This document shows, piece after piece, positions 8,733 to 44,654 of a DNA stretch of 44,654 bases. Source of the DNA: a virus; IMG/VR virus record IMGVR_UViG_3300021963_000220, positions 1 to 44,654 of that record; one strand, given 5' to 3'. Below the pieces are notes generated by a model. The model was not told the DNA's origin, searched no databases, and was given only the letters and a program-made list of their open reading frames with translations. Each line of letters starts with the position of its first letter. Position 1 is the first letter of the stretch. The position numbers and the translations under genes were made by a program.

Positions 8733-8749
8733 AATATCTATAAAATTAA

Positions 8750-8776
8750 AAAGACCCAATTAATCTTGGGTCTTTT
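8750..8776 (+). terminator. Rho-independent terminator
   Basis: AAAGACCCAA (8750-8759) pairs with TTGGGTCTTT (8766-8775) around a six-base loop, with flanking A and T runs. It lies between the 763-residue protein gene and the ligase-like gene. The symmetry would allow function in both directions. Confidence 0.8.
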
Positions 8777-8790
8777 ATATTTCTCCTAAT

Positions 8791-10071
8791 ATGAAAACAC
8801 TTTTAAACTATACAGAGTTCCTTATTGAAAAATGGAATCAACAATATCCAGACATTATCTTAGAAGGCGGAGCAGCAGGACACATGATGCACCCATTTGA
8901 TGATGAAACTCTTACATTTGGTGAAATCAAACACATTATTGATGGTGCTTTAGAAGGTCGTTTAGATTTCGAAGCGGCTCCTACTGAAAAAACAGACGGA
9001 CAAAATGTCTTTGTTACAGTTAAGAATGGTCAAGCAATGTTCGCTAGAAATAAAGGACAGATGAAACAACCAATAGATCTTAATGGAATCACACAGATGT
9101 TTCAGGATCATCCATCAACTGGCGTTAGAGATACATTTACGTTCGCTGCACAAGATTTGGCCAGTGCGCTGCAATCACTATCCGCAAAGGACCAACAAGA
9201 ATTTAATGATGGAACTTCATTTATGAATATGGAATTAATTTACTCTGGTAATTCAAATGTAATCGCTTATGGTAAAGATGTTATTCAATTTCATGGTATG
9301 GTTCACACCGATGGAGAAGGTAACCAAACAGGCTCAGACTCTAAATTAGCTGGTAAAATAACAAACGCACTAAAATCAGTTAATTCACACGTACAAAAAA
9401 CATTTGAAATCATTCCACCTCAGGAATTACAAATAGGTAAATCAATTGACTTTGAAGAAAAGAAAGGTTATTTCTTAAATAAGGTTAATGTTTTACAAAA
9501 AAGATATAACTTACAAGACACAGATCCAGTTTCTAAATATCACGCGATGTGGTGGAAAGAACTTATAGATAAAGACTTTTCAAAATTAGATGAAATTGAT
9601 AAAGCAGGCTTAGTACAAAGATGGGCATTCAATGACAAGAAAACTTTAAATATTAGAGATCTTGCAAAGAAAATGGATCCAACAGAATATAAAGCATTTC
9701 AAAAATTTGATAAAGAAGACTCAGTTAAAAAATTTAAAGAAAACATTTTACCATTTGAAAACTTATTCTTAGAATTAGGTTCAGTGGTGTTAAAGAATGT
9801 TTCTAATCTTTTAGTTGCTAATCCAGCTCAAGAAATGCAAAGACTACATACACAAATTAAAACAGAGGCCGATAAAATCAAACAAAACGGAGATTTAACT
9901 CAATTAGCTAAAGTAGAAAAAGAATTAGCTAGATTAGATTCTATCGGCGGTATTGATTCTATCGTACCTTCAGAAGGCTTAGTTTTTCAATATAAAGGTA
10001 AATTATTTAAGCTTACTGGAACATTTGCTGCCATTAATCAGCTTATGGGTATTATAAAATACGGAAGATAA
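8791..10071 (+). CDS. Ligase-like nucleotidyltransferase with capsid-targeting-like N-terminus
   Basis: The 426-residue protein has motifs of the covalent nucleotidyltransferase (DNA/RNA ligase) superfamily. Motif I is EKTDGQN with candidate nucleophile Lys67. MFARNKGQ follows about 15 residues later, NMELIYSG resembles motif III, and SEGLVFQYKGKLFKLTG near the end fits motifs IV and V. The N-terminus MKTLLNYTEFLIEKW resembles a capsid-targeting peptide and is followed by a clean prohead-protease site, ILE|G after residue 25. This suggests it is packaged and injected. Residues 28-36 (AAGHMMHPF) resemble a segment I recall from cyanophage proteins of unknown function. Substrate (RNA or DNA) is unknown. 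It is followed by a second ligase-like gene with its own promoter. Confidence 0.6.
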   Translation: MKTLLNYTEFLIEKWNQQYPDIILEGGAAGHMMHPFDDETLTFGEIKHIIDGALEGRLDFEAAPTEKTDGQNVFVTVKNGQAMFARNKGQMKQPIDLNGITQMFQDHPSTGVRDTFTFAAQDLASALQSLSAKDQQEFNDGTSFMNMELIYSGNSNVIAYGKDVIQFHGMVHTDGEGNQTGSDSKLAGKITNALKSVNSHVQKTFEIIPPQELQIGKSIDFEEKKGYFLNKVNVLQKRYNLQDTDPVSKYHAMWWKELIDKDFSKLDEIDKAGLVQRWAFNDKKTLNIRDLAKKMDPTEYKAFQKFDKEDSVKKFKENILPFENLFLELGSVVLKNVSNLLVANPAQEMQRLHTQIKTEADKIKQNGDLTQLAKVEKELARLDSIGGIDSIVPSEGLVFQYKGKLFKLTGTFAAINQLMGIIKYGR

Positions 10072-10142: not shown

Positions 10143-12023
10143 ATGGCATTACAAAAATTAAGAGATTTTTATCAAGGTACGAATCCCAATACATTTAACG
10201 ACATGTTAAAGTCAAGAGTTGTTGTAACTGAAAAGATTGCAGGAGCTTCATTTCATGTTAGAAGAGCAATGGAAGGTTTTGAGTATTTCAAATCTGGAAA
10301 TAACGAAGCTATGAATATCATAGATAGAACGTTAACTTCAGTATATGAAAATGCAATTAAACACTTTCAAAGTTTAACATTAAACGAGAAAAATCAAATG
10401 CCAAGTGATTGGAAGTTTGGATTTGAATATTTACCAGAAGCTAATATGTCTTCTATTGAATATGATTCAACGCCTTTCAATTTTATGATATTAACGCACA
10501 TTCAAGTTTTAGGAACTAATGGCAAAGCTAAAAAGGTTTTAACAGATCCTAAGGTTCTAAAAGAATGGGCACAAAAACTACAAGTACAAGGACCATCAAT
10601 CATTTTTGATGGCATGTTAAATGAGGATCAAAAGAGAAATTTAGTGACATTACTTTCAATGTCAAACGAATCATACGCTAAAAGATTTGGAAATGAAGCG
10701 TTCACCAACCACATTTACAAATTATTTAATCCAGGAGCTTATAAAACCATTTTAAATGAAGATTTAATCAAACCGATTGATGGTTTAATAGTCTCTTTCG
10801 TAGATTCAACACAAATTAAAAGTTTTAAATTAGAAGAGTTTAAACCAGCTAATGAAGCTGAAACTTCCAACAGAGAAGCAAGTCACATGTATCAAATTAC
10901 AATGGTTGATTTGCTAGAATTCTTTTCAACAGTAGACCTAGATAGTATTGAGCTTTTAGAAACAGCTTCAGATAAAAGATATATTGAGTTGATTTCAGCA
11001 ATGTACAATTCGTATGTTAAAGAAAATGCTACTAAATATGTAGGAGTTGATTTTGGAGCAGCTGATTTTTCTAAATCTGCATTATTCAATATCAATACAA
11101 AATACATTGACAACGAAAAGACATTAGAATATTTAGACAATCCAGTTTTAGCTGAACTTTATAAAATCATGCTAAGCTCTTTTTCTAAAAAGAAAATAAA
11201 AGAATCTGCATTGTTAAATTCAAATATCTTAGAACAATTAAATCAGATTATTGATGTAATTGAACAAAAAGTATTTGTAGAAAACGCAGATGAAAATGCA
11301 ATTCACAACTTCAATAATTTCTTAATGCACAATAAGATTTCTGCTAGTAAAACTAACATGAACGAAGCATTAAAAATTAATTATTCAGAACAAGGTAAAG
11401 AAAAAGTAAACATGTTTGTTGGTAGATTCCAACCATTTACTCTTGGACATGCTAAAGTTTTAGAAACAATCCACAAACAAAATGGTTATCCAGTCGTAGT
11501 ATTTTTGGTTAAAGCTGCAAAGGCTCAAAAAGACGATGCCGTTAAAAGACCGTTTGATACAGAAACACAAATTCAAATGTTTATGCAAGTGCAAAAGCAA
11601 TATCCTTTCTTAAAAGAGATTTTTGTAATTCCATCAGCTGGTATCGATTTGATGTTTAATGAAATGAGACCTAAATATGAACCAGTTTTATGGGGAACAG
11701 GCACAGATCGTTTCAAAACTTATGGCTATCAAGTAAACAATGACAAATATAGAGATGAACTTGGTGTTTTACCAGAGTTTGGTTTATATGAGATCAAAAG
11801 AGACGATGAAGATATTTCAGCAACTAAAGTTAGAGAAGCTTTATTAGCTAATGATAAAAAGACTTTTGATAAAATGACACCTAAAGCGTTAGGTCCTTTA
11901 TTTAATGAACTTAAACAAAAGTTAGAAACTTCATTAAAAATTTCAGAAGCTATTGAAACAGAAGCAAGTACGGATGTATTAACTTTTGAACAATTTAAAT
12001 TAAATACTAATATTATTAAATAA
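10143..12023 (+). CDS. RNA ligase fused to an NMN-adenylyltransferase-like domain
   Basis: This 626-residue protein has two enzyme domains. The N-terminal part reads as an RNA ligase: motif I EKIAGASF with nucleophile Lys31, FGFEYLPEAN (motif III-type), PIDGLIVSF (motif IV) and IKSFKLEEF (motif V). From residue 424 a Rossmann-type nucleotidyltransferase begins with FVGRFQPFTLGHAKVL, the GRFQPxxxGH signature of NadM/NadR-like NMN adenylyltransferases. It ends near ISATKVREAL, matching their ISxTxxR motif. The middle third (about 240-410) is helical and unassigned. The end, LTFEQFKLN, recalls the FEQF of the cargo N-termini. A host-type promoter lies upstream. Roles in RNA repair, NAD synthesis or both are possible. 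I know of no such fusion in T4. Confidence 0.72.
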   Translation: MALQKLRDFYQGTNPNTFNDMLKSRVVVTEKIAGASFHVRRAMEGFEYFKSGNNEAMNIIDRTLTSVYENAIKHFQSLTLNEKNQMPSDWKFGFEYLPEANMSSIEYDSTPFNFMILTHIQVLGTNGKAKKVLTDPKVLKEWAQKLQVQGPSIIFDGMLNEDQKRNLVTLLSMSNESYAKRFGNEAFTNHIYKLFNPGAYKTILNEDLIKPIDGLIVSFVDSTQIKSFKLEEFKPANEAETSNREASHMYQITMVDLLEFFSTVDLDSIELLETASDKRYIELISAMYNSYVKENATKYVGVDFGAADFSKSALFNINTKYIDNEKTLEYLDNPVLAELYKIMLSSFSKKKIKESALLNSNILEQLNQIIDVIEQKVFVENADENAIHNFNNFLMHNKISASKTNMNEALKINYSEQGKEKVNMFVGRFQPFTLGHAKVLETIHKQNGYPVVVFLVKAAKAQKDDAVKRPFDTETQIQMFMQVQKQYPFLKEIFVIPSAGIDLMFNEMRPKYEPVLWGTGTDRFKTYGYQVNNDKYRDELGVLPEFGLYEIKRDDEDISATKVREALLANDKKTFDKMTPKALGPLFNELKQKLETSLKISEAIETEASTDVLTFEQFKLNTNIIK

Positions 12024-13205: not shown

Positions 13206-15455
13206 ATGAATTTTCAAAACTTTCTTAACGAGAAATATAGCAAAGATGACATCAATACAGCGTATGGCTTCTTTGGTACTATGGAAGATGCACATAATGA
13301 AAAAATAGCATACGAAATATTTGATGCAGCTGTTAAAGACTTGATGAAAGAATTTGGTCTTAAAGATGTTGAAGCTGTAGCTTTATTAAATAGCAAAGCA
13401 GGTAGACAAGCAGCTGATGCAATTATTGCAGGAGAATGTGAAGATAGTGTTGTTGCAGGAATGTATTGGTACTTTGGCAAAAACAACAAATCAAAAATTG
13501 TTAGTGCTGCTAAAAGTGCAATTAGTGAATCTAATGAATTAGATGAAGCTTCTAAATTTGGAGCTCCAGCTGGTTTAACTAAAGCTCAAACTAAAAAGGT
13601 TGCAGAAACTTTAGCTAAAGCAATGTCAAAGGCTGATAATGCTAAAGTGACAGTTAATCTTAGAACATTAGAAGAAGATTCATTTGATTTAGATTATGAT
13701 GGTGAAGAATATGACGGTGGTTCATATAATATTTACGATGACGGTTCTGTCGTTAATCATGCAGTAACACCTAATGAAATTTATGGAACTTCTGATTCTT
13801 CAGTTGAAGATTTTATTAAAGGTTTAAAAAAGCCTATTAAAGAATCATTCTTAGATGCTTATGATGAAAATTCAGAAGAATTAGATGAATCATATTCAAA
13901 TGATTTTGCATCTTGGTTTACAGGTACTTCATTAAATGATGTTAAACATCCAAAATATGGAAATCACAAAGTAACGCCAGATCAAATTAAAAATGCGCCG
14001 GCTGATTACAAAAATAAACTTTTTAAAGCTATAGAAAAGGCAATTAAATCAGGTGATATTACAAATGACATGATTAAAGCCAATGAATCTTTAGAGATTA
14101 GCGAATCTAAAATTACTTTAAAAAGAAGATATACAGAAAGTTATCCAGCTAAAACAACTGGAAAATATGCTGCTGTTAGAAATAAAATCATCGAAGCTTT
14201 AAAAGACGGTGAATTAACTAAAGAAGAATTTGACACTTTAGTTTCTGGTTTAACAGAAGATTCTAAAAGATGGTTAAGAAGAAATTCAACCTTCTTTAAT
14301 ATACAAGAAGATAAAGTTGGTTTAACAAAATCTGGTCAAAAAATAGCAGCTGCTCTTTTTCAAGCGGAAGATGTTAATAGCAACTTAAAAACAAACGAAA
14401 ATAACAATACAAATATGAAAACTAAATTCATTTATGAATCATTTTCTGAATTCGTTAATTCAATTGATGAGTCTTTTGAATTAGTTTCAGAATCATTTAA
14501 ATCATCTATGTTAGCTGGTTTATTTACAAGACAAGGTACATTCGATGCTAGTTTAGCAAAAGCTTTTTATGGAGCTACTAAATTAAAATTAGATCAAATC
14601 GAAGATGAAGATTTAATTAGTACAACACCAGCTTTAGCATATAAAAACAAATTAGAAAGTTCTATCGTTTTTTATATCTCTGATGTAGAAAAACCAAATA
14701 CTTATGCACCAGCAGACACTTACTATGCAAGTAAAACTATTCCAGGTGAAGGCTATTTATTAGCCGTAGCTTCAGGAGATAATAAATTCTATGACAATGT
14801 TTGGACTGGTGGAAGATGGGACAGAAATGCTAAAAATAGAACATTAAAACAAGTTGATAACAATCCAAGCGATTCAATCGGTATTAATAAAAAATACAGC
14901 GGATGGGAAGCAACAGGACTCTACAATGTTAAAAGAATTTCAGAAGTAGCTGATAGAGCAATCGTAATCAATACAACTTTATTAAGACAAAAATATTCAG
15001 CAGAAGCTCAAAGAGCAGATAGAGCTGCAGCTAAAAAAGGTGCAATTGCATTTAAATCAGATAAAGATTTTAAAGCTGAAAACATGGCAAGATATAATCA
15101 AATCATTGCTCAGAAAGCCACTCAAATGCCAATGGACAGTTTAGTTTCAAAAGCAATCGAAAGAATGTCTGAACAAATCAAAGACGGTTTAGCTAAACAA
15201 ACTAAAGGGCGTTATGGCGAAATTATCGTAGGTACAAATGCAAAAGGCGCTGAAGCTAAATTAGCAGATGTTGCTAATCACATGCAACGTATCTTAGATG
15301 ATTATTCTGGATATGTTCGTGTTGTTGCACAGCAAGAAGATTCAGTTGCTAAATATGGAGAAGCAGAGTCTTGGTATAAAAGAGAAGTTGAACAAAAAGC
15401 AAAAGAACTTAAAGATAGACTTGATAAAATAGAATCATTCTCTTATATCTGGTAA
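13206..15455 (+). CDS. Large internal polyprotein-like protein with repeated protease sites
   Basis: The 749-residue protein begins MNFQNFLNEKYS, resembling a capsid-targeting peptide with LNE at residues 7-9. The first 423 residues hold many consensus prohead-protease sites: ISE|S (after 108), LDE|A (114), IKE|S (213), LDE|S (228), ISE|S (300), IYE|S (411) and IDE|S (422). None is evident in residues 423-749. Met404 opens a second capsid-targeting-like peptide (MKTKFIYESFSEFVNS), so the gene looks like two cargo genes fused. The last 320 residues contain SSIVFYISDV, YYASKTIPGEGYLL and a long C-terminal helix. No catalytic motif was recognised. I infer packaging and cleavage into several peptides plus a roughly 327-residue C-terminal protein. 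Confidence 0.6.
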   Translation: MNFQNFLNEKYSKDDINTAYGFFGTMEDAHNEKIAYEIFDAAVKDLMKEFGLKDVEAVALLNSKAGRQAADAIIAGECEDSVVAGMYWYFGKNNKSKIVSAAKSAISESNELDEASKFGAPAGLTKAQTKKVAETLAKAMSKADNAKVTVNLRTLEEDSFDLDYDGEEYDGGSYNIYDDGSVVNHAVTPNEIYGTSDSSVEDFIKGLKKPIKESFLDAYDENSEELDESYSNDFASWFTGTSLNDVKHPKYGNHKVTPDQIKNAPADYKNKLFKAIEKAIKSGDITNDMIKANESLEISESKITLKRRYTESYPAKTTGKYAAVRNKIIEALKDGELTKEEFDTLVSGLTEDSKRWLRRNSTFFNIQEDKVGLTKSGQKIAAALFQAEDVNSNLKTNENNNTNMKTKFIYESFSEFVNSIDESFELVSESFKSSMLAGLFTRQGTFDASLAKAFYGATKLKLDQIEDEDLISTTPALAYKNKLESSIVFYISDVEKPNTYAPADTYYASKTIPGEGYLLAVASGDNKFYDNVWTGGRWDRNAKNRTLKQVDNNPSDSIGINKKYSGWEATGLYNVKRISEVADRAIVINTTLLRQKYSAEAQRADRAAAKKGAIAFKSDKDFKAENMARYNQIIAQKATQMPMDSLVSKAIERMSEQIKDGLAKQTKGRYGEIIVGTNAKGAEAKLADVANHMQRILDDYSGYVRVVAQQEDSVAKYGEAESWYKREVEQKAKELKDRLDKIESFSYIW

Positions 15456-15485: not shown

Positions 15486-16004
15486 ATGAAACACATTCAA
15501 TTATTCGAACAATTTATTAACGAAGCTAGAGCTGAAGTTAAATTAGGTAGAGTGACACCTAAAAACATAGATGAAAAGGCACAACAAGTGTTAGAAGTTT
15601 TACAAGACGCGGTTGGTAAAACTATCAACGGAGAAGAACTTAAAAAAATGGTTGGTAGAAACTGGGGAGGTCCAGGTGCAAGTAAAGGTCTTAAAAATGC
15701 TAAAATTGAAATTATTGCAGTTCACGTAGGACATAACAATAGCTATATTTCTATGCAATTTATATATAAGACTGATTCAGATTTATTCGATAACCACGCC
15801 GAAGGTAATCAAAAATTAAAAGATCTTGAAGGTTGGGCCAAAGTAGCAGACGGTATGCGTTCTATGAAAGCAATTGACGGTAGTAATAAAGAATATAAAA
15901 GCGATGCATCGCACCAAGTCAAAGAACTTGTATTTAATAGTTTAAGTCCTAAAAACTTAGAAAATGCATTATCTATTTTAAAATTAGGTGATATTATCCT
16001 ATAA
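15486..16004 (+). CDS. Putative packaged internal protein with capsid-targeting peptide
   Basis: The 172-residue protein begins MKHIQLFEQFINEARAEV. This closely matches the style of T4 internal-protein targeting peptides and carries a consensus cut site, INE|A, after residue 13. The same N-terminus, with small changes, starts the gene at 29205 (MKHIKLFEQFIDES). The mature part is mixed alpha/beta (KIEIIAVHVGHNNSYISMQFIY) with no recognised active site. I infer targeting to the head core, cleavage by the protease encoded at 43258, and injection with the DNA. The gene starts 30 bases after the large polyprotein-like gene. Confidence 0.65.
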   Translation: MKHIQLFEQFINEARAEVKLGRVTPKNIDEKAQQVLEVLQDAVGKTINGEELKKMVGRNWGGPGASKGLKNAKIEIIAVHVGHNNSYISMQFIYKTDSDLFDNHAEGNQKLKDLEGWAKVADGMRSMKAIDGSNKEYKSDASHQVKELVFNSLSPKNLENALSILKLGDIIL

Positions 16005-16018
16005 AATAAAACACAAAC

Positions 16019-16465
16019 ATGCCAGCAAAATCAAAAGCACAACAAAGATTAATGGGACTAGCTTATTCAGTTAAGCAGGGTTACATGGATATTGCTCAAG
16101 TCGGTGCAGAGTATAAAGATAAAGTTAAAGAACTTGTTAATTCAATGAGTATCGAACAACTTAAAGATTATGCTACTACGCCACATGAAGGTTTACCAGA
16201 CACTGTAGAATCAGACTCAAACGAATCTATGGGTTTTGCAACTGGTTCGAGCGGACCGCAATCTATTGGAATGCCAGGTATGGGTATGGGCAAAATAGCT
16301 TTGCCAGATTTAGGCACAGGTGCTGTTGGTTCTGGAGATAAACCATCCGGTAGAGGTGATGCCGATGATGAATACGAAAAAGAAAAGAAGAAGAAAAAGA
16401 AACGCGAGAAAAAGCTAGCGAAATCATACGAATCTTTTATTTTCGAAAAGTATGGAAAGCTTTAA
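16019..16465 (+). CDS. Small protein with MPAKSKAQQR N-terminus and lysine-rich tail
   Basis: The 148-residue protein begins MPAKSKAQQRLMGLAY, a start I recognise from small conserved phage and bacterial proteins of unknown function. A glycine/methionine-rich flexible middle (IGMPGMGMGKIALPDLG) follows, then a strongly charged segment ending in a run of lysines (about 121-136). The last residues, SYESFIFEKYGKL, resemble the FEQFIxE targeting peptides but lie at the C-terminus. It closes the cargo block and is followed by a strong terminator. A DNA-binding or packaged role is possible; nothing firmer can be said. Confidence 0.55.
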   Translation: MPAKSKAQQRLMGLAYSVKQGYMDIAQVGAEYKDKVKELVNSMSIEQLKDYATTPHEGLPDTVESDSNESMGFATGSSGPQSIGMPGMGMGKIALPDLGTGAVGSGDKPSGRGDADDEYEKEKKKKKKREKKLAKSYESFIFEKYGKL

Positions 16466-24907: not shown

Positions 24908-26326
24908 ATGCTATTAGACATTGAACAAAGAGAGAAGGAAATTATAGTTTCATATTTCAACAAAGAAGGCACAGTAGATTTTAAACGTTATCCAATAACA
25001 CAATTTAAAAATTGGTATGTTTGTGATCCTAAAGAAGCTGGTGCTAGTCGAGATTTTAAAAACTGGGATGGACGTTCAGTGAAACTTTCACAAGCTAGAC
25101 AATTTAATAAATTTTCATTAGTTTATTTTATGGATGGCTTACCAGAAAAAGACAAAGAAGTTATTTACGAATACAATTCACCTAGAACATATTTCGTCGA
25201 TATTGAAACTGAAATTGTCGATGGCTTTCCAAAGGCCGAAGAAGCTAAATCAAGAATCTTAGCTTTTTCTATAGTTACACCAGACAAAAAGGTAATCGTA
25301 TTAGGTTTAGAAGACTTAGAGTCTGATAAAATTAAAAAGATTGAAGATGACACTAATGAATACATGAAAAAATTTGGTGATGAGTGGACCTTTCAATATA
25401 TTAAATTTAAAACAGAGTATGACATGGTTTATACTTTCGTTTATAAATTTATGCCTAAGTTTCCTATGATGACTGGCTGGAACTTCATTAACTATGACTG
25501 GCAGTATATTGTAAATCGATGTAAACATCTACAGATCGATATAGTTGGTTCGTCCAGGACAGGATCATTAGATCCAGAAGACAGTAGACCATTACACATG
25601 GGAATTCTAGATTACATGCAGCTATATGACAAATACGATAGATCTGTTAAAGTAAAAGAGTCAAACTCTTTGGATTACGTTTCTAGTCAAGTATTAGGTA
25701 CTAACAAGATTAAATTCACAGGATCATTACAAGATTTATATAGAGATAACTTTACTAAGTACATCTACTATAACGTAATTGACTCCATCTTAGTTTATTA
25801 CATTGATAAAAAATTAAAATCAATGGATGTACTTATTACTCTTGCATCTATTACAAAAATGCCATTATATAAAGCAGCTTCACCGGTAGCAGTAACTGAA
25901 GCCTTGATTGCAAGAAAAATTGCGTCTGAAGGTAAACGTATTGGAACTGAAGCCAGAGAAGATAATAAAAAAGAAGGTCAATTTGCTGGAGCATTTGTTA
26001 AAGAGCCTATCGTTGGTTTTTATGAAGGAGTAAGTGCATTTGACTACGCTTCACTATATCCATCTATTATGAGGCAGTTTAATGTTTCTCCAGATGCTTT
26101 TATCGAAAAGGTGCCATCTTCTAAAATAGAAGAAAGACGTAAAGATAAAAATGTTATTGTTTGTGAAAACGGAGTTGTTTATAAAAACGAAGATTCTATT
26201 CTTAAAAAAATATTATCAGATCTTTATTCACAGCGAAAAGAGTATAAGGGAATGTCCTATGAATATTTTCACAAAGCAGAAGAAATAAAAAAGAAAATAA
26301 AAGCACTTGAAAAAGCAGGTCAATAA
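24908..26326 (+). CDS. gp43A: DNA polymerase, N-terminal part (exonuclease plus motif A)
   Basis: This 472-residue fragment of a family B polymerase covers the N-terminal domain, 3'-5' exonuclease and first part of the palm. Exonuclease motifs are FVDIETE (Exo I), GWNFINYDWQYI (Exo II) and YNVIDSILVYY (Exo III). Motif A is SAFDYASLYPSIMRQFN, matching T4 TSLYPSIIRQVN. The frame ends in the fingers helix region (LYSQRKEYKGMSYEYFH) with a short helical extension, before motif B. The remainder is encoded separately at 30520-31716. Both halves carry all expected motifs, so the pair is probably an active split enzyme. It begins one base after gp56. Confidence 0.92.
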   Translation: MLLDIEQREKEIIVSYFNKEGTVDFKRYPITQFKNWYVCDPKEAGASRDFKNWDGRSVKLSQARQFNKFSLVYFMDGLPEKDKEVIYEYNSPRTYFVDIETEIVDGFPKAEEAKSRILAFSIVTPDKKVIVLGLEDLESDKIKKIEDDTNEYMKKFGDEWTFQYIKFKTEYDMVYTFVYKFMPKFPMMTGWNFINYDWQYIVNRCKHLQIDIVGSSRTGSLDPEDSRPLHMGILDYMQLYDKYDRSVKVKESNSLDYVSSQVLGTNKIKFTGSLQDLYRDNFTKYIYYNVIDSILVYYIDKKLKSMDVLITLASITKMPLYKAASPVAVTEALIARKIASEGKRIGTEAREDNKKEGQFAGAFVKEPIVGFYEGVSAFDYASLYPSIMRQFNVSPDAFIEKVPSSKIEERRKDKNVIVCENGVVYKNEDSILKKILSDLYSQRKEYKGMSYEYFHKAEEIKKKIKALEKAGQ

Positions 26327-29175: not shown

Positions 29176-29183
29176 TATATTTG
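29176..29183 (+). promoter_or_regulatory. Bacteroidota-type -7 box (TATATTTG)
   Basis: An exact TAnnTTTG box 21 bases before the ATG at 29205. The -33 position has TTT instead of TTG. It follows a terminator, which supports a real promoter here. Confidence 0.55.
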
Positions 29184-29204
29184 TATATCAAAAACAACAA
29201 AATT

Positions 29205-29633
29205 ATGAAACACATTAAACTATTTGAACAATTTATTGATGAATCCAACGACATGTCTCTTCAATCCGCAGCTGGAAATGGAAGATCAATTGGAAGATAT
29301 AATGGACCTACTGGTGCTTCTGCAGAATGGAAAGATAACCAAACTGTTATTTCAAATAAATCAGAGTATTCTACTGAAATTCTAACAAATGCTGCATCGG
29401 CATTAAGAGATCTTGGTATTCAAGTAAAAGAAAAATCAATACAAGATGGTATATTAACAACTGAATTCGGAGGCTCAACGTGGACGTATCAATTTAAAAG
29501 TGGTAAATGGACTGCTACCGTTACAGATTCTAACGGTACTGCAGAAGCCCCAAAAGACATTTATGAATTTATCAGATTTATGGTCGCGCGAAAATATATA
29601 AAATTTAAAGATAAATTAGTAGGACGTAAATAA
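29205..29633 (+). CDS. Putative packaged internal protein between the polymerase halves
   Basis: The ATG at 29205 is chosen. The frame stays open to a TTG at 29181, but that lies inside the promoter box. The 142-residue protein begins MKHIKLFEQFIDES, nearly the same targeting-type N-terminus as the gene at 15486, with a consensus cut IDE|S after residue 13. The rest is mixed alpha/beta (GILTTEFGGSTWTYQFKSGKW). It has its own promoter and terminator, so it forms an independent unit within the nrd-clamp segment. I infer a head-packaged, injected protein. Its mature function is unknown. Confidence 0.65.
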   Translation: MKHIKLFEQFIDESNDMSLQSAAGNGRSIGRYNGPTGASAEWKDNQTVISNKSEYSTEILTNAASALRDLGIQVKEKSIQDGILTTEFGGSTWTYQFKSGKWTATVTDSNGTAEAPKDIYEFIRFMVARKYIKFKDKLVGRK

Positions 29634-29770: not shown

Positions 29771-30520
29771 ATGAAAGTAGTTATTAACAAAGTAGATCAG
29801 AACAACTTTGTAGCATTCATTAATCGTTTAAGAGTTATTGATTCTTTTGTCTATTTCAAAATTAAAGACGAACAAATCATCTCTTCAGCTTATTTGCCAC
29901 AACGTGACGCTGTAAAACACCACACGCTTCCAATTTCAGAAGTATTTCAAATTGATGCTAGTCAATTAACAACAGACAAAGACCTTAAAGTGGCTTTCTT
30001 TGATGCTGGTAAAATTATCGAAGCATTCAAACAATTTGAATACGATTCTATTCAAGCAGAAATTGAATTCGTAGAAAACGATGAAGACTGTGTAGCTTCT
30101 ACATTTAAAATCTTTAATGACGAGTTAGAAATCGTTTTAGCTTGTTCAGAACCATCTTTAGGTTACAAAGACTTAACAGAGTCTCAATTACAAAATATCT
30201 TCATGACTGAAGGTGCTGAAGTTAACTTTGATTTATCATTCACTGATACATCTAAGATTAAATCTCTTTTCAACTTAGATAAAGATGAGACTTTTGCAAT
30301 TTCAACTTCTAAAGAAGGTGTTCGTATTAAAGGTAAATCTTACAACAAATTAATCAATTCAACTAGCGTTTCTAAGGCTAATGTGACTGTTTACAAAAAG
30401 TATTTGAACTTGTTTGACAAAGAAGATTATTCTACTTATGTCTTTAACAATAGAGTAGTTTTACGCTCTAAAGACTCAAACACTCTTTTAACAATCGCAA
30501 CTTGCCAAAGCACTGATTAA
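29771..30520 (+). CDS. gp45: Sliding clamp gp45
   Basis: The 249-residue protein (T4 gp45: 228) has the repeated beta pattern of a trimeric clamp. ETFAISTSKEGVRIKGKSYNK parallels T4 DTIAITVKEGKIVINGFNK, and an acidic, strand-rich N-terminal half precedes it. It tethers the polymerase and, in T4-like phages, also activates late transcription through gp33 and gp55. Its TAA shares a base with the ATG of the polymerase C-terminal half, so clamp and polymerase half are translationally coupled. Clamp-loader genes 44 and 62 are not in the window. Identity rests on weak similarity plus strong context. Confidence 0.72.
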   Translation: MKVVINKVDQNNFVAFINRLRVIDSFVYFKIKDEQIISSAYLPQRDAVKHHTLPISEVFQIDASQLTTDKDLKVAFFDAGKIIEAFKQFEYDSIQAEIEFVENDEDCVASTFKIFNDELEIVLACSEPSLGYKDLTESQLQNIFMTEGAEVNFDLSFTDTSKIKSLFNLDKDETFAISTSKEGVRIKGKSYNKLINSTSVSKANVTVYKKYLNLFDKEDYSTYVFNNRVVLRSKDSNTLLTIATCQSTD

Positions 30521-31716
30521 TGACTATTGAACAACTACTTAATAAACCAGAAGACCAACTAACTTTGGTTGAGCTTAAATCCTTAGCAGACTTTTATTCA
30601 AACGAGTCTGCTAAGTTTACAGCTTATGAACAAGCAGTTAAGTTAACACTTAACTCGATCTACGGAGCCTTTGGTAATAAGTGGTTTCACTTCTTTAATA
30701 TTGACATTGCTGAATCTATTACTTTACAAGGTCAAAATGCAATCTTATATTCCGAAAAGATACTTAATAAGTACTTTCAAGAATTCTTTGTCAAAGATAC
30801 TAAAATTCATGAAGAATTAAATATCAAAGTTAAAAGAGCTTGCGTTAAACCGGCTGTAATTTATATCGATACCGATTCTAATTACGTCCAATTTCAAGAG
30901 ATGTACGAATCTATCGAGTGGTTAGGTGAAAAACTAGACATTGTAACGTTTATTCTTAAACTTTACAATTTACGTATCAAAGATTATATCGTTAAGTCGC
31001 TAGACAAATACGCTGAAAACAGAAACACTGATTCATTTTTAGAATTTGAATTAGAATCTATTGCATACTCAGGTATTTGGATGGCTAAAAAGAAATACTT
31101 GCAAAATTTAGCGTGGGACGATAAACTTGGCGTAAACGAAAGACATGCAATGTTAAAGAAGATCAAAACCATCGGTTATGATACTATTCAATCTTCAACA
31201 CCAATGTTTGCTCGTAAGAAACTATCAGAAGCTTTACAGATTCTTTTTGAAAAGAAGCCAACCCCAGAAACTTTAACAACTATTGTTTCGTTTCTTAAAA
31301 AGGCAAAGAAAGAATTTAAGTTAGCGCCGATAGATGAAATCTCTTTTAACAAGAGAACAAACAATTTAGAGAAGTATATTGTAGATGATCACGTTGAGTT
31401 TCAATATGGACTAAAATGTCCACCTAACGTTAAAGCTGCTGGATTTTATAATTACTTAATGAATAACAATCCTAAGTATAAAAACAAATACAGAATGATT
31501 GGTAATGGTGAGAAGCTAAGATTATTCCATTGTGAACACAAGACATGTGAGATCTTTGCATATTTGCCAGGTGATCATCCTTATGAATTTGCACCAGCCG
31601 TAGATTATGAAACTCAATTTGAAAAATCAGTAATTGATCCATTGAATAGAGTTTTAGGCTGTATTGGTCTTCAGACATTAAACAGAAACTTAATTTATTC
31701 AACTTCATTATTTTAA
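30520..31716 (+). CDS. gp43B: DNA polymerase, C-terminal part (motifs B and C, thumb)
   Basis: This 398-residue half completes the family B polymerase. After a 38-residue leader with a helical start comes motif B, VKLTLNSIYGAFGNKWFHF (T4: KILINSLYGALGNIWFRYY), then motif C, IYIDTDSNYVQF with the catalytic DTDS. The KxKKY element follows (WMAKKKYLQNL), then IGYDTIQSSTP (T4: GMETQQSSTP) and the thumb. The end, FEKSVIDPLNRVLGCIG...STSLF, parallels the T4 end, with its clamp-binding SLDFLF tail. It must pair with the fragment at 24908-26326 for activity. No homing endonuclease or inverted intein signs flank it. Confidence 0.93.
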   Translation: MTIEQLLNKPEDQLTLVELKSLADFYSNESAKFTAYEQAVKLTLNSIYGAFGNKWFHFFNIDIAESITLQGQNAILYSEKILNKYFQEFFVKDTKIHEELNIKVKRACVKPAVIYIDTDSNYVQFQEMYESIEWLGEKLDIVTFILKLYNLRIKDYIVKSLDKYAENRNTDSFLEFELESIAYSGIWMAKKKYLQNLAWDDKLGVNERHAMLKKIKTIGYDTIQSSTPMFARKKLSEALQILFEKKPTPETLTTIVSFLKKAKKEFKLAPIDEISFNKRTNNLEKYIVDDHVEFQYGLKCPPNVKAAGFYNYLMNNNPKYKNKYRMIGNGEKLRLFHCEHKTCEIFAYLPGDHPYEFAPAVDYETQFEKSVIDPLNRVLGCIGLQTLNRNLIYSTSLF

Positions 31717-41171: not shown

Positions 41172-42794
41172 ATGGCAGGATTCGTAGACAGAAACGGACC
41201 GTTTAGTACAGGTAAAAGACCTTTTAGGTTGAGCGATACTCTTAAGAAGTTATCGTCGTTCGGTATGTATTATGACGACTTAGTATTAAGACAATCACAA
41301 GCGATCGGTCCAATGGAAGATCAATTTGGTTACGGCCAAATGAACTTAATGGGCGTAGATTCAGATGACATTTATGGTGCATTTGCTGCACTATCTATGG
41401 CAGATACTAACATGAGAAAGAACCTTCCGTTCTTTGACATGAATTATAAATCTAAAAGAGATGAATTAAGACAATTTTCTCTTTATGATGAAATCGAAGA
41501 CATTTTAGATATTCTTTGTGATGAATCTATTGTATTTGATGAGAAAAATTTCGTAGCAACACCAACCTTAATTGGTATGGAAGTTTCTGAAGAAGTTACA
41601 TCATACATGCATAAATCATTTAGAAATATCTACCAATATTTTGGATTTGCAGGAGATCAATCTGCATGGTTTTACTTTAGAAAATGGTTAATTGATGGTT
41701 ATTTGTCATTTGAGATTGTTTATAATCCAGAAATGACAGAAATTATTGGTTTCAAAGAAATTGATCCAACAACATTAGTTCCAGGTTACAATAAAGAAGA
41801 TGGTAAAAAGGTTTGGGTTCAGTTTAAAGATGATCCAATTAAAGAGCGTAAATTATATGATGCGCAAATTATTTACATCTCATACTCTTCTATTACTACA
41901 GCTTCACGTATCTCTTACGTAGAACGATTAATTAGAGCATTTAACTTATTAAGAGTTATGGAACATACCAGAGTTATTTGGGCTGTTACAAATGCTTCAT
42001 ATAGAATGAAATTTATTATCCCAGTTGGTGGTAAATCTAAAACAAGAGCAAAACAATCATTAGCTCAATTGATGAATAACTATAAAGAAGTAGTTGATTT
42101 TGATTGGGATTCAGGCGTTCTTAATACTAATGGTAAACCGATGCTTCAATTTAATAAAGAATATTGGTTACCTTCAAAAGACGGTGAACAACCAGAAATT
42201 GAAACTTTAGGTGGTGAAGGTCCTGAAATTAATGATGTTGAGTCTTTAAAATACTTCTCAGATAAATTAAAGCACGTTTCTAAGATCCCATATAGTAGAT
42301 TTATGTACGAAGATGGCGGTGGAGAAAACAACATGGCAGCTGACGGTATGATCAGAGATGAGATTAAGTTTGCTAAATTCGTTAACCGTCTAAGATCTTC
42401 ATTCCAAGAAATTTTAGTTAAGCCTTTATGGTTGCAAATGTGTATTAAATTCCCTGAATTCAAAGAGGATCCAATGTTTAGAACACAAATCGCATTAAGA
42501 TATAACGAAGAAAACATGTTTGCTGAAATGAAAAACATGGAAATTATGGAAAAACGTCTAGACTTTATTGGCAATATGCGTAATAACTTGATGACAACGA
42601 ATCCATTAACAATGGAAGAAGAACATTATTTCGATTTAGATTTCTTAGTAGATAAATACTTAAAGCTAAATAATGACGATAAAACAGCCAATGAAGCTGC
42701 TAAAGCAAGAACAGAAGCCAGAAAAGCTGCAGAACCAGAAGATCCAAACGCAATGGCTATGATGGGCGGAGTGCCAGGTGCTGGCGGATTCTAA
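41172..42794 (+). CDS. gp20: Portal vertex protein gp20
   Basis: The 540-residue protein (T4 gp20: 524) forms the dodecameric ring through which DNA enters and leaves. Family marks include FSLYDEIEDILDILCDESIVFD near residue 100, GYLSFEIVYNPEMTEIIGFKEI near 180, IIYISYSSI, VESLKYFSDKLKHVSKIPYSRF and the strongly conserved ADGMIRDEIKFAKFVNRLRS near 393. The C-terminus is flexible and glycine/methionine-rich (MAMMGGVPGAGGF). It precedes the core protein and protease genes as in T4 (20-67-68-21-22). Confidence 0.95.
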   Translation: MAGFVDRNGPFSTGKRPFRLSDTLKKLSSFGMYYDDLVLRQSQAIGPMEDQFGYGQMNLMGVDSDDIYGAFAALSMADTNMRKNLPFFDMNYKSKRDELRQFSLYDEIEDILDILCDESIVFDEKNFVATPTLIGMEVSEEVTSYMHKSFRNIYQYFGFAGDQSAWFYFRKWLIDGYLSFEIVYNPEMTEIIGFKEIDPTTLVPGYNKEDGKKVWVQFKDDPIKERKLYDAQIIYISYSSITTASRISYVERLIRAFNLLRVMEHTRVIWAVTNASYRMKFIIPVGGKSKTRAKQSLAQLMNNYKEVVDFDWDSGVLNTNGKPMLQFNKEYWLPSKDGEQPEIETLGGEGPEINDVESLKYFSDKLKHVSKIPYSRFMYEDGGGENNMAADGMIRDEIKFAKFVNRLRSSFQEILVKPLWLQMCIKFPEFKEDPMFRTQIALRYNEENMFAEMKNMEIMEKRLDFIGNMRNNLMTTNPLTMEEEHYFDLDFLVDKYLKLNNDDKTANEAAKARTEARKAAEPEDPNAMAMMGGVPGAGGF

Positions 42795-42818
42795 TAAAAT
42801 AAAATGAATACATATAAT

Positions 42819-43196
42819 ATGAAAAAATTAATTAAAACATTCGAACAATTTATATTTGAAGCTGAGGCCGTTAAGGCAGAAGATTCAGATGTTTATATCG
42901 ATGATGTATCGGCTGATGGTTCAGACACTGTAATTAAAGCTGTTGAAATTTTAGGAGCTATTAAGGCATCTGCAACAGAAAAAGAATTTAAAGACTATTT
43001 CTTTCAGCAATATGGCCAAACTACTTTAGCACCAGAAGATATGGCTAAACTTTGTAAATATTACAATGAATACAAAGAAGAAGAAAACAAAGAAAAGGCT
43101 GACTCTGAAAAAGAAGGTGAAGATGAAACTTCTACTGAAGAAGATCCATTAGCAGGTTTAGACACAGATTTACCAACAGGAGAAGACGGAAAATAA
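42819..43196 (+). CDS. Acidic prohead core protein (gp67/gp68-like position)
   Basis: The ATG at 42819 is preferred to the in-frame one at 42804 because it gives MKKLIKTFEQFIFEAEA, a capsid-targeting-type N-terminus with a consensus cut, IFE|A, after residue 14. The 125-residue protein ends in a very acidic tail (EEENKEKADSEKEGEDE). T4 places the small core proteins gp67 and gp68 at exactly this spot, between portal and protease. gp67 likewise has an acidic tail. It probably helps shape the scaffold core and is degraded or cut during maturation. Confidence 0.68.
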   Translation: MKKLIKTFEQFIFEAEAVKAEDSDVYIDDVSADGSDTVIKAVEILGAIKASATEKEFKDYFFQQYGQTTLAPEDMAKLCKYYNEYKEEENKEKADSEKEGEDETSTEEDPLAGLDTDLPTGEDGK

Positions 43197-43257: not shown

Positions 43258-44654
43258 ATGAATACAAATTCAAAACTTTTGATTCTTGAAAGAAGTGGTT
43301 CTACATTAGCATTCGCTCAAGATAATTCAGGCGCTTATGTTCTTGAAGGCGTGTTCGGTGAAATCGATAAGTTAAACAGAAACAATCGTATCTATACCGA
43401 AGACGAATATTTACCGCAAGTAGAAAGCCTTCAGGCTAAAATCAAATCATCTAAACTATTAGGTGAATTAGATCACCCACAAAACTTTGACATTTCTTTA
43501 AAAAATGTTTCTCACATTATTGAAGAATTAAGATATGACAAAGACAAGAAACAAATCCTTGGAAAAATTAGATTATTAGACACTGATGCTGGTAAACAAG
43601 CTAAAGCATTAGTTGACGCTGGTGTACCTTTACACATTTCTTCTAGAGCGGCTGGTACAGTAGAATCTAATGGAAAAGTTAAAATCAAACAATTATTTAC
43701 TTATGATTTAGTTGCAGATCCTGGATTTGCTAATGCTGAATTAAAAAGAGTTAATGAAGCTTTTGGTTTTGAAGATAATGAAGATCTTTTAATTTACGAA
43801 ATCAACCCAACTGATAATAAACAAACACAAATAAAAGAAGAACAAAACATGGAAAACGCAAGATTCGTTAGTACTGATGACTTCAATAGTTATTCAAAAT
43901 ACTTAGCTGAAGAAATCAAAGCTTTAAAAGAATCTCTTACAGCATTAACTAGCTCTGAGTCTACTAACGAAGAGATTAAAAATCTAAAAGAGTATTCTTC
44001 TTATATAGCTGAAAAATTAAACCAAGCAATTGCTTATTCTGAGCACGTTGCAGAAAAAGCTGATCAAGGAATTCAGTTCGCTGATTCATTAGCAGAAAAA
44101 TTAGACCAATCAATTCAATATTCTGAGCACATCGCAGAAGGTGTTGAAGCTATCAAAGGTTACACTAACTATTTAGCTGAGTCTTATAACGAAGGAGTTA
44201 TGACACACGAAAATGTAGTTAAATATGTAAACTATTTAAAAGAAAACTTAGAGAAAGTTACTGAATACGCAGAATACGTTGCAGAAACTGTAAACTCTAA
44301 CTTATTAATGGAAGATGATACTGATGCAGGTAAAGAATTAACTGAAGAGCCAAATGATAAAACTCCAGAGGTTATCGATGCAGAAGGTGAAAAATATCCA
44401 AAAGCAGAAGATGCAGCAGAAGATATCGAAGACGAATTAGAAAAAGATATCGAAGCTTCAAAAGCTGACGGTGAAGATACAGGTAAAGAAGTTACTGAAG
44501 AAGTAGAAACTGATGAAGAAGTTGCTGAAACTGAAGACAAAATGGATGCTTATAAGAAAGAAGTTACTGAGAAATTAGCTTCATTAGTTGAAAGCGCTAA
44601 AGCAAAATCAGTAGCAGAACCACATTTCTTTAAATTCATCGCTGAAGCTAAGAA
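43258..44654 (+). CDS. gp21: Prohead protease gp21 fused to a gp22-like scaffold (runs off the window)
   Basis: The frame is open from the ATG at 43258 to the window edge (465 codons). Residues ~30-165 are the T4 gp21-type serine protease (family S80/U9): GVFGEIDKLNRNNRIY, LLGELDHP with His73, DISLKNVSHIIEEL and VPLHISSRAAGTV with catalytic Ser128 or Ser129. A possible self-cleavage site, VNE|A (after 167), ends this part. An internal in-frame ATG (43849, Met198) behind an A-rich stretch opens the scaffold. About seven 14-residue coiled-coil repeats (residues ~250-347; e.g. LAEKLDQSIQYSEH) come first, then an acidic region, then FFKFIAEA with a cut site IAE|A. In T4 these are two genes. The protease presumably matures the cargo proteins. 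Confidence 0.85.
   Translation, partial: MNTNSKLLILERSGSTLAFAQDNSGAYVLEGVFGEIDKLNRNNRIYTEDEYLPQVESLQAKIKSSKLLGELDHPQNFDISLKNVSHIIEELRYDKDKKQILGKIRLLDTDAGKQAKALVDAGVPLHISSRAAGTVESNGKVKIKQLFTYDLVADPGFANAELKRVNEAFGFEDNEDLLIYEINPTDNKQTQIKEEQNMENARFVSTDDFNSYSKYLAEEIKALKESLTALTSSESTNEEIKNLKEYSSYIAEKLNQAIAYSEHVAEKADQGIQFADSLAEKLDQSIQYSEHIAEGVEAIKGYTNYLAESYNEGVMTHENVVKYVNYLKENLEKVTEYAEYVAETVNSNLLMEDDTDAGKELTEEPNDKTPEVIDAEGEKYPKAEDAAEDIEDELEKDIEASKADGEDTGKEVTEEVETDEEVAETEDKMDAYKKEVTEKLASLVESAKAKSVAEPHFFKFIAEAK

Follow-up and report, generated by a model that had tools for sequence, protein, structure and literature searches.

A candidate virion-packaged nucleotidyltransferase with an RNA-ligase fold and a constant HIGH-family partner in a T4-like phage

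Why would a T4-like phage place a ligase-type active site behind an N-terminus that resembles a capsid targeting peptide? This question is raised by one gene in a 44.7-kb IMG/VR fragment (the window, which refers to the whole analyzed stretch of 44,654 nucleotides). A first-pass annotation of the gene had proposed a ligase-type nucleotidyltransferase that is packaged in the virion, trimmed at a clean ILE/G cut site, and able to repair cut tRNA or nicked phage DNA on entry. The gene product is referred to here as protein A and the product of the following gene as protein B (Table 1).

The window encodes a gp32-like ssDNA-binding protein, a primase, a UvsW-like helicase, ribonucleotide reductase, UvsX, and an SbcC-like subunit, along with a gp20-like portal and a gp21-like prohead protease. 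The T4-like portal marks the phage as one with a T4-type head. Gene A is a real open reading frame (ATG at 8791, stop at 10071), and differences from its relatives by codon position (63/32/176 and 15/4/95) indicate that it evolves as a coding gene. It is flanked by a gene for a 763-aa protein on one side and by gene B on the other. A strong hairpin with a T-run was observed between the 763-aa gene and A; A and B may therefore constitute their own transcription unit.

Table 1. Positions of protein A, protein B, and related features in the window
Feature	Position	Strand	Evidence
Terminator-like hairpin before A	8749..8776	+	-14.4 kcal/mol, z -5.3
Protein A, predicted RNA-ligase-fold covalent nucleotidyltransferase, 426 aa	8791..10071	+	ORF; AlphaFold model; solved-structure matches
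A residues 1-25, putative T4-type capsid targeting peptide, candidate cuts LIE13 and ILE25/GG	8791..8865	+	T4 likeness; relatives
A motif I, EKTDGQN, predicted nucleophile Lys67	8986..9006	+	EKxDG in 163/163 loci
A motif III, FMNMELIY (E148)	9220..9243	+	E148 100% conserved
A helical insertion, ~185 residues, between motifs IIIa and IV	9418..9969	+	DSSP of model
A motifs IV and V, EGLVF...FKLTG	9973..10020	+	E395, G396, K407, T409, G410 100%; DSSP
Protein B, 626 aa, degenerate RNA-ligase-like N-terminal domain and HIGH-family (NMNAT/PPAT-like) nucleotidyltransferase	10143..12023	+	
B HIGH nucleotidyltransferase domain (GRFQPFTLGH ... ISATKVR)	11400..11936	+	PF01467 E 7e-9
B C-terminal targeting-like motif LTFEQF	11979..11996	+	52/62 distinct B proteins
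Neighbor with N-terminal targeting-like motif MNFQNFLNE, candidate further cargo	13206..15455	+	38/59 homologues
Portal gp20, T4-like	41172..42794	+	PF07230 E 8e-68
Prohead protease, gp21-like, Peptidase_S77, runs off window	43258..44652	+	PF03420 E 4e-12

The first-pass annotation had placed motifs I, IV, and V correctly, and the proposed nucleophile is likewise Lys67. These motifs read E66-K67-T-D-G-Q-N72, E395-G-L-V-F, and K407-L-T-G410, and EKxDG was invariant in the 163 loci that encode an A domain, where R86, E148, E395-G396, K407, T409, and G410 were also conserved at approximately 100%. An AlphaFold model of A (pLDDT 83.9, pTM 0.79; residues 1-31 disordered) has strands at the positions of motifs III, IV, and V. 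When this model was compared to solved structures using VIA-align, the best 50 PDB entries were all covalent nucleotidyltransferases (Z 5.2-9.2), with Naegleria Rnl as the top match (Z 9.2, 182 aligned residues) and further matches to Trypanosoma REL1 (Z 8.2), T4 Rnl1 (8.1), Trl1 (8.1), and T4 Rnl2 (7.8). The top 20 Foldseek matches were RNA ligases (E 0.008-0.25). A broad A profile matched a combined Rnl2+Rnl5 profile at a pairwise P of 2e-4, the register being kept over motif I and the strand after it, and matches to T4 Rnl2 alone were weak (E 0.05-0.3 using narrow profiles, 0.002 using the broad one). The fold match is moderate (Z ~9) and the profile homology to known ligases is weak. Judged from the model, A almost certainly has a nucleotidyltransferase fold, and Lys67 is very probably active as its predicted nucleophile. 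The earlier assignment to ligase-type nucleotidyltransferases was thus borne out by the conserved active-site residues and the predicted fold; modeling returned the fold that had been expected, and the suggested comparison with Rnl-type ligases returned RNA ligases as the best matches.

With the Rnl5/Rnl2-type ligases (Naegleria gruberi Rnl, T4 RnlB, Trypanosoma REL1), A shares the nucleotidyltransferase core, the KxDG-type nucleophile and the (S/A)RN that follows it, the motif III glutamate, an EG(V/L)VF motif IV, and the motif V lysine. In contrast to these enzymes, A contains the large helical insertion, an upstream GGAAGHMxHPFDD segment, and a putative targeting peptide; it lacks the N-terminal OB domain of Rnl5 and the C-terminal helical domain of Rnl2, its motif V reads K-L-T instead of K-x-K, and PF09414 (RNA_ligase) misses it, none of 52 A members having a listed match over the curated cut-off. 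In the model, the approximately 64 residues before motif I form no OB strands, a single helix follows motif V, and both a C-terminal OB domain and the known RNA-ligase add-on domains are absent. The insertion has conserved residues (W255, R277-W278, P321-F322-E323, G330, and N336) and matched no known family. The segment upstream of the core is invariant as GGAAGHMxHPF(D/E)D and lies outside the known motif set. Based upon the insertion, the lack of a domain after motif V, and the GGAAGHM segment, A was placed within the ligase/capping superfamily and outside of Rnl2/Rnl5.

When A and sets of 52 and 41 relatives were scanned against Pfam and PHROGs, no match rose above chance level. PDB sequence and profile searches using A likewise returned chance matches, RsgI2 and RelB3 among them, and recovered no ligase. 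In IMG/VR contigs, the A domain was matched by at least 586 stretches, which fall into two clades with different gene arrangements. Seven matches were found in bacterial genome contigs, all of them short MAG contigs that are probably misbinned phage. The A domain is therefore a large phage family that has no Pfam or PHROG name. It combines known kinds of protein, the ligase superfamily and the T4-type packaged enzymes, and the family itself is unnamed.

Given that A has neither the C-terminal nor the OB domain of known RNA ligases, its substrate is not readable from its architecture. A packaged and injected A might act as a host-modifying enzyme, as injected T4 Alt does, with a host protein or a small molecule as the acceptor of NMP, and seal no nucleic acid. 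This reading would account for a protein that consists of the nucleotidyl-binding core with no known nucleic-acid-binding add-on after motif V, and for the large conserved helical insert, but the best fold matches are all ligases and capping enzymes, and the conserved R86 and E148 fit ligase chemistry. We consider it unlikely. That A seals nucleic acid is somewhat favored.

The N-terminus of A bears on where such an enzyme would act. It reads MKTLLNYTEFLIEKWNQQYPDIILE followed by GGAAGHM, and contains two T4-type sites, laid out as MKTLLNYTEFLIE then a candidate cut (LIE13), KWNQQYPDIILE then a second candidate cut (ILE25), and GG. The first stretch resembles the tag of the T4 internal proteins, which, in the sequences inspected, begin MKTYQEFIAE, followed by the cut and an alanine. 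Its core, YTEFLIE, has aromatics at T4 positions 4 and 7, I/L at position 8, and E at position 10. In T4, the first ten residues are enough for capsid targeting, to which residues 4 and 7 contribute, whereas residues 8 and 10 are important in processing, and gp21 cleaves after L/I-X-E (PMC9026906). A resembles T4 IPI-IPIII and Alt in its N-terminal MKxxxxFxEFLxE and in a cut after L/I/V-x-E, and a T4-type portal and prohead protease are encoded in its own genome; it differs from the T4 internal proteins in having a second conserved site, E/GG, approximately 12 residues past the first. We know of no packaged ligase-fold counterpart of A in T4. The gp21-like protease in the window is the enzyme that would cut the tag.

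In order to score this signal across relatives, a strict motif was derived from T4 ([YF]xx[FYW][LIVT]xE, scored before GG). The strict motif was present in 50 of 58 distinct single-domain relatives of A and a loose form in 57 of 58, in agreement with the earlier description of the N-terminus as targeting-like. All 58 relatives have (I/V/L)xE followed by GG (I or L in 37, V in 21), and downstream of internal methionines in the same proteins the motif was found in 0 of 468 cases. By family, the N-terminal motif occurred in 49/57 for A, 23/29 for W743, and 38/59 for W13206. No replication protein compared in these loci, gp32, primase, and UvsW included, has it (0 of 42-52 each). Overall, 155 of the 757 ORFs of the loci carry a T4-type motif, and this frequency lends some weight to the alternative of an unpackaged A, an ordinary ligase for RNA or DNA that is produced in the infected cell and whose motif has another purpose, for example, binding to a phage compartment or core scaffold. 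Against this, the motif and cut site of A match the experimentally defined signal of T4, and the motif is missing from all replication proteins and canonical RNA ligases of the phage. This alternative is regarded as quite unlikely.

The ILE/G site was confirmed, with a caveat. Its consensus is universal among the single-domain relatives, but the E/GG element is also kept in fusion proteins that have no tag directly before it. GG is conserved at 99% and E25 at approximately 92%, M or C replaces E in approximately 12 fusions, and xE/GGAYGHM is mostly retained at the border of the ligase domain in the fused clade. Cleavage alone therefore does not explain the element. The enzyme itself probably requires the GG and the GHMxHPF after it, which leaves the E alone as a possible trace of cleavage.

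These fusions make up the second clade. In the isolated Microcystis phage Mel-JY01 (fusion protein WWT39297.1), in LR756508, and in 80 IMG/VR loci, the A domain forms the C-terminal end of longer proteins, whose complete examples span 640-1700 aa. In the fusions scanned, a HIGH domain or GRFQP motif lies near the N-terminus or after a kinase domain, and some fusions add Zeta/AAA_33 kinase, Zn-protease, or ParB_N domains. Three loci (L112, L120, and L156) were observed to encode a Zeta-toxin/AAA_33-type P-loop kinase, a HIGH nucleotidyltransferase, and a ligase-fold domain in one chain. The fusion genes are located just upstream of terminase and portal; terminase lies downstream on the same strand in 70 of the 80 loci, mostly within 0.5-5 kb, and the remaining ten have less than 3.5 kb of downstream DNA. 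The position of terminase is independent support for a late, head-associated fusion protein, and a head-cluster location of homologues further opposes the unpackaged alternative. A tag common to neighbors in this clade (MNKLTxWL) was sought and not found; packaging of the fusions is thus argued from gene position.

Like the polyvalent phage proteins (PMC5512222), the fusions are long and multi-domain and are likely delivered with DNA, and the placement of A at the end of proteins with Zeta/AAA_33, ParB_N, and Zn-protease domains adds to the case for a host target, as in injected polyvalent effectors. Differences are that no RNA ligase domain is reported in the accessible part of that account (PMC5512222), and that the window version is two separate genes.

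Taken together, the T4-like targeting peptide, the cut site, the prohead protease in the window, and the head-cluster position of the sister clade support virion packaging of A well, as the first-pass annotation had anticipated. As a prediction from sequence and gene position, packaging is probable, and we hold it with good confidence.

Further tag-bearing ORFs were observed in the window and are candidate virion cargo or core proteins. An N-terminal T4-type motif occurs at 743-1111, 13206-15455, 15486-16004, 29181-29633, and 42804-43196, and the ORF at 16019-16465 has the motif at its C-terminus instead. Some of these motifs are nearly identical (MKHIQLFEQFINE, MKHIKLFEQFIDE). The prohead protease ORF has in-frame, scaffold-like repeats of YxxYLAE-type motifs after the protease and looks like a protease-scaffold fusion.

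Protein B is encoded next to A, downstream on the same strand, in all 78 IMG/VR loci compared at the DNA level and in the 462-kb phage LR756500. Its N-terminal domain matched T4 Rnl2 by Foldseek (E 1e-6), and a profile comparison of A against B gave no significant match. In this ligase-like domain, most members lack the DG of motif I, and motif IV reads DG at best; a second active ligase is unlikely given these degenerate motifs. The HIGH domain matched NMNAT (Z 14.1) and PPAT (Z 13.2), i.e., within 1 Z unit, and GRFQPFTLGH and ISATKVR were intact in 38 aligned B proteins. The C-terminal targeting-like motif of B, which was found in none of the replication proteins of the same loci, is comparable to the C-terminal processing reported for T4 Alt. 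A is thus constantly tied to a HIGH-family (NMNAT-like) nucleotidyltransferase, an association newly seen here and overlooked by the first-pass annotation, and any mechanism for A must account for this partner.

Proteins with related HIGH domains have been reported from cyanophage virions. Mass spectrometry detected NMNAT-like/cytidyltransferase proteins in the particles of S-CREM2, S-SCSM1, S-CBWM1, and S-SZBM1, and the authors warn that abundant soluble proteins may be carried through purification along with the virions (PMC10665884, PMC9602691). The HIGH domain of these cyanomyovirus proteins is related to that of B, and the S-SSM5 homologue begins MKKFSAFLTEA, a T4-type N-terminal tag. The S-SSM5 protein (386 aa) has no ligase domain, whereas here a ligase-fold protein accompanies the HIGH domain, either in the same chain or as a paired protein.

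Away from A, the closest large relative (G001, 256 kb) has genes for a DNA ligase, a PNK-like kinase, and RNA ligases of the Rnl1 and Rnl5 types; neither of these two RNA ligases begins with a tag. PF09414 matches two other genes in this record, neither of them A nor B. A role for A as the general RNA repair enzyme of the phage was rejected on the basis of this gene set. With a DNA ligase, a kinase, and two ordinary RNA ligases already available to the phage, A is a separate and probably pre-made enzyme.

The same relative encodes NAPRTase, which makes NMN, and together with the constant HIGH partner this suggests a link between A and NAD. In its strongest form, A and the HIGH domain would be an NAD-coupled machine, in which A draws AMP from NAD+ and thereby releases NMN, and the HIGH domain uses ATP to convert this NMN back to NAD+. 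Strict pairing in two arrangements (tandem or fused), a HIGH domain nearest to NMNAT though tied with PPAT, the conserved GGAAGHMxHPFDD ahead of the ligase core, and the NAPRTase gene are all in keeping with such a machine. It is opposed by the failure to detect a LigA Ia domain and by HIGH-domain scores that barely separate NMNAT from PPAT, and the pairing could simply reflect two cargo enzymes. We rate it as very unlikely, and a virion-delivered version, in which the particle brings both A and a partner that regenerates NAD+ from NMN, as marginally less probable again.

For the preferred reading, a packaged sealing enzyme, we infer packaging, cleavage, adenylylation, sealing, a choice of RNA over DNA, and early timing as follows. 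A would be made late, its N-terminal targeting peptide would bring it into the prohead, and the gp21-like protease would trim it there at LIE13 and/or ILE25/GG. The ligase fold, the catalytic residues, the T4-like tag, and the constant partner indicate that A probably accompanies the DNA into the host and acts early; injected with the genome, it would be at work ahead of all phage gene expression. AMP would be loaded onto Lys67, and A would then rejoin broken nucleic acid (RNA cleaved by a host defense being the likeliest target) before the later-made phage ligases exist. Since the canonical RNA ligases and kinase come from other phage genes, a packaged ligase would bridge the gap that precedes expression. 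RNA is the somewhat likelier substrate because the nearest folds are RNA ligases, and a preference of A for RNA is held tentatively, a little short of being favored. Repair of tRNA or nicked DNA on entry, as initially proposed, may be one among several possibilities. Overall, what the first-pass annotation saw in the sequence was confirmed, and its interpretation finds support in part. B, or the fused HIGH domain, would travel with A, and its most likely task at this early stage would be to make or restore NAD or a similar dinucleotide. The proposal as a whole, with A packaged, trimmed, injected, AMP-loaded, and sealing nucleic acid early and with B co-delivered, is only narrowly favored.

If this is true, phages carry a ready-made ligase-type enzyme in the particle against RNA- or DNA-cutting defenses, and their answer to defense is not limited to enzymes made after infection. 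The cytidyltransferase/NMNAT proteins of cyanophage virions would also gain a possible partner and hence a testable role. No account of a packaged RNA ligase like A was recovered in full-text literature searches, and the available portions of reviews covering NAD systems of phages, RNA repair in jumbo phages, and polyvalent proteins (PMC9503650, PMC7824862, PMC5512222) do not describe the A ligase family.

Additional observations concern B and the replication genes. In four loci (L041, L042, L048, and L054), B is extended to approximately 1115 aa, with the frame continuing past LLTFNDFI into a domain of approximately 500 aa. A relative of the N-terminal ligase-like domain of B is present in huge phages (LR756501-LR756504 and LR745206, 635-735 kb), where the match stops short of the HIGH domain. 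In the window, the family B DNA polymerase (gp43) is split between 24908-26326 and 30520-31716, approximately 4 kb apart; the ribonucleotide reductase genes lie between the halves, and PHROGs assigns a separate family to each half.
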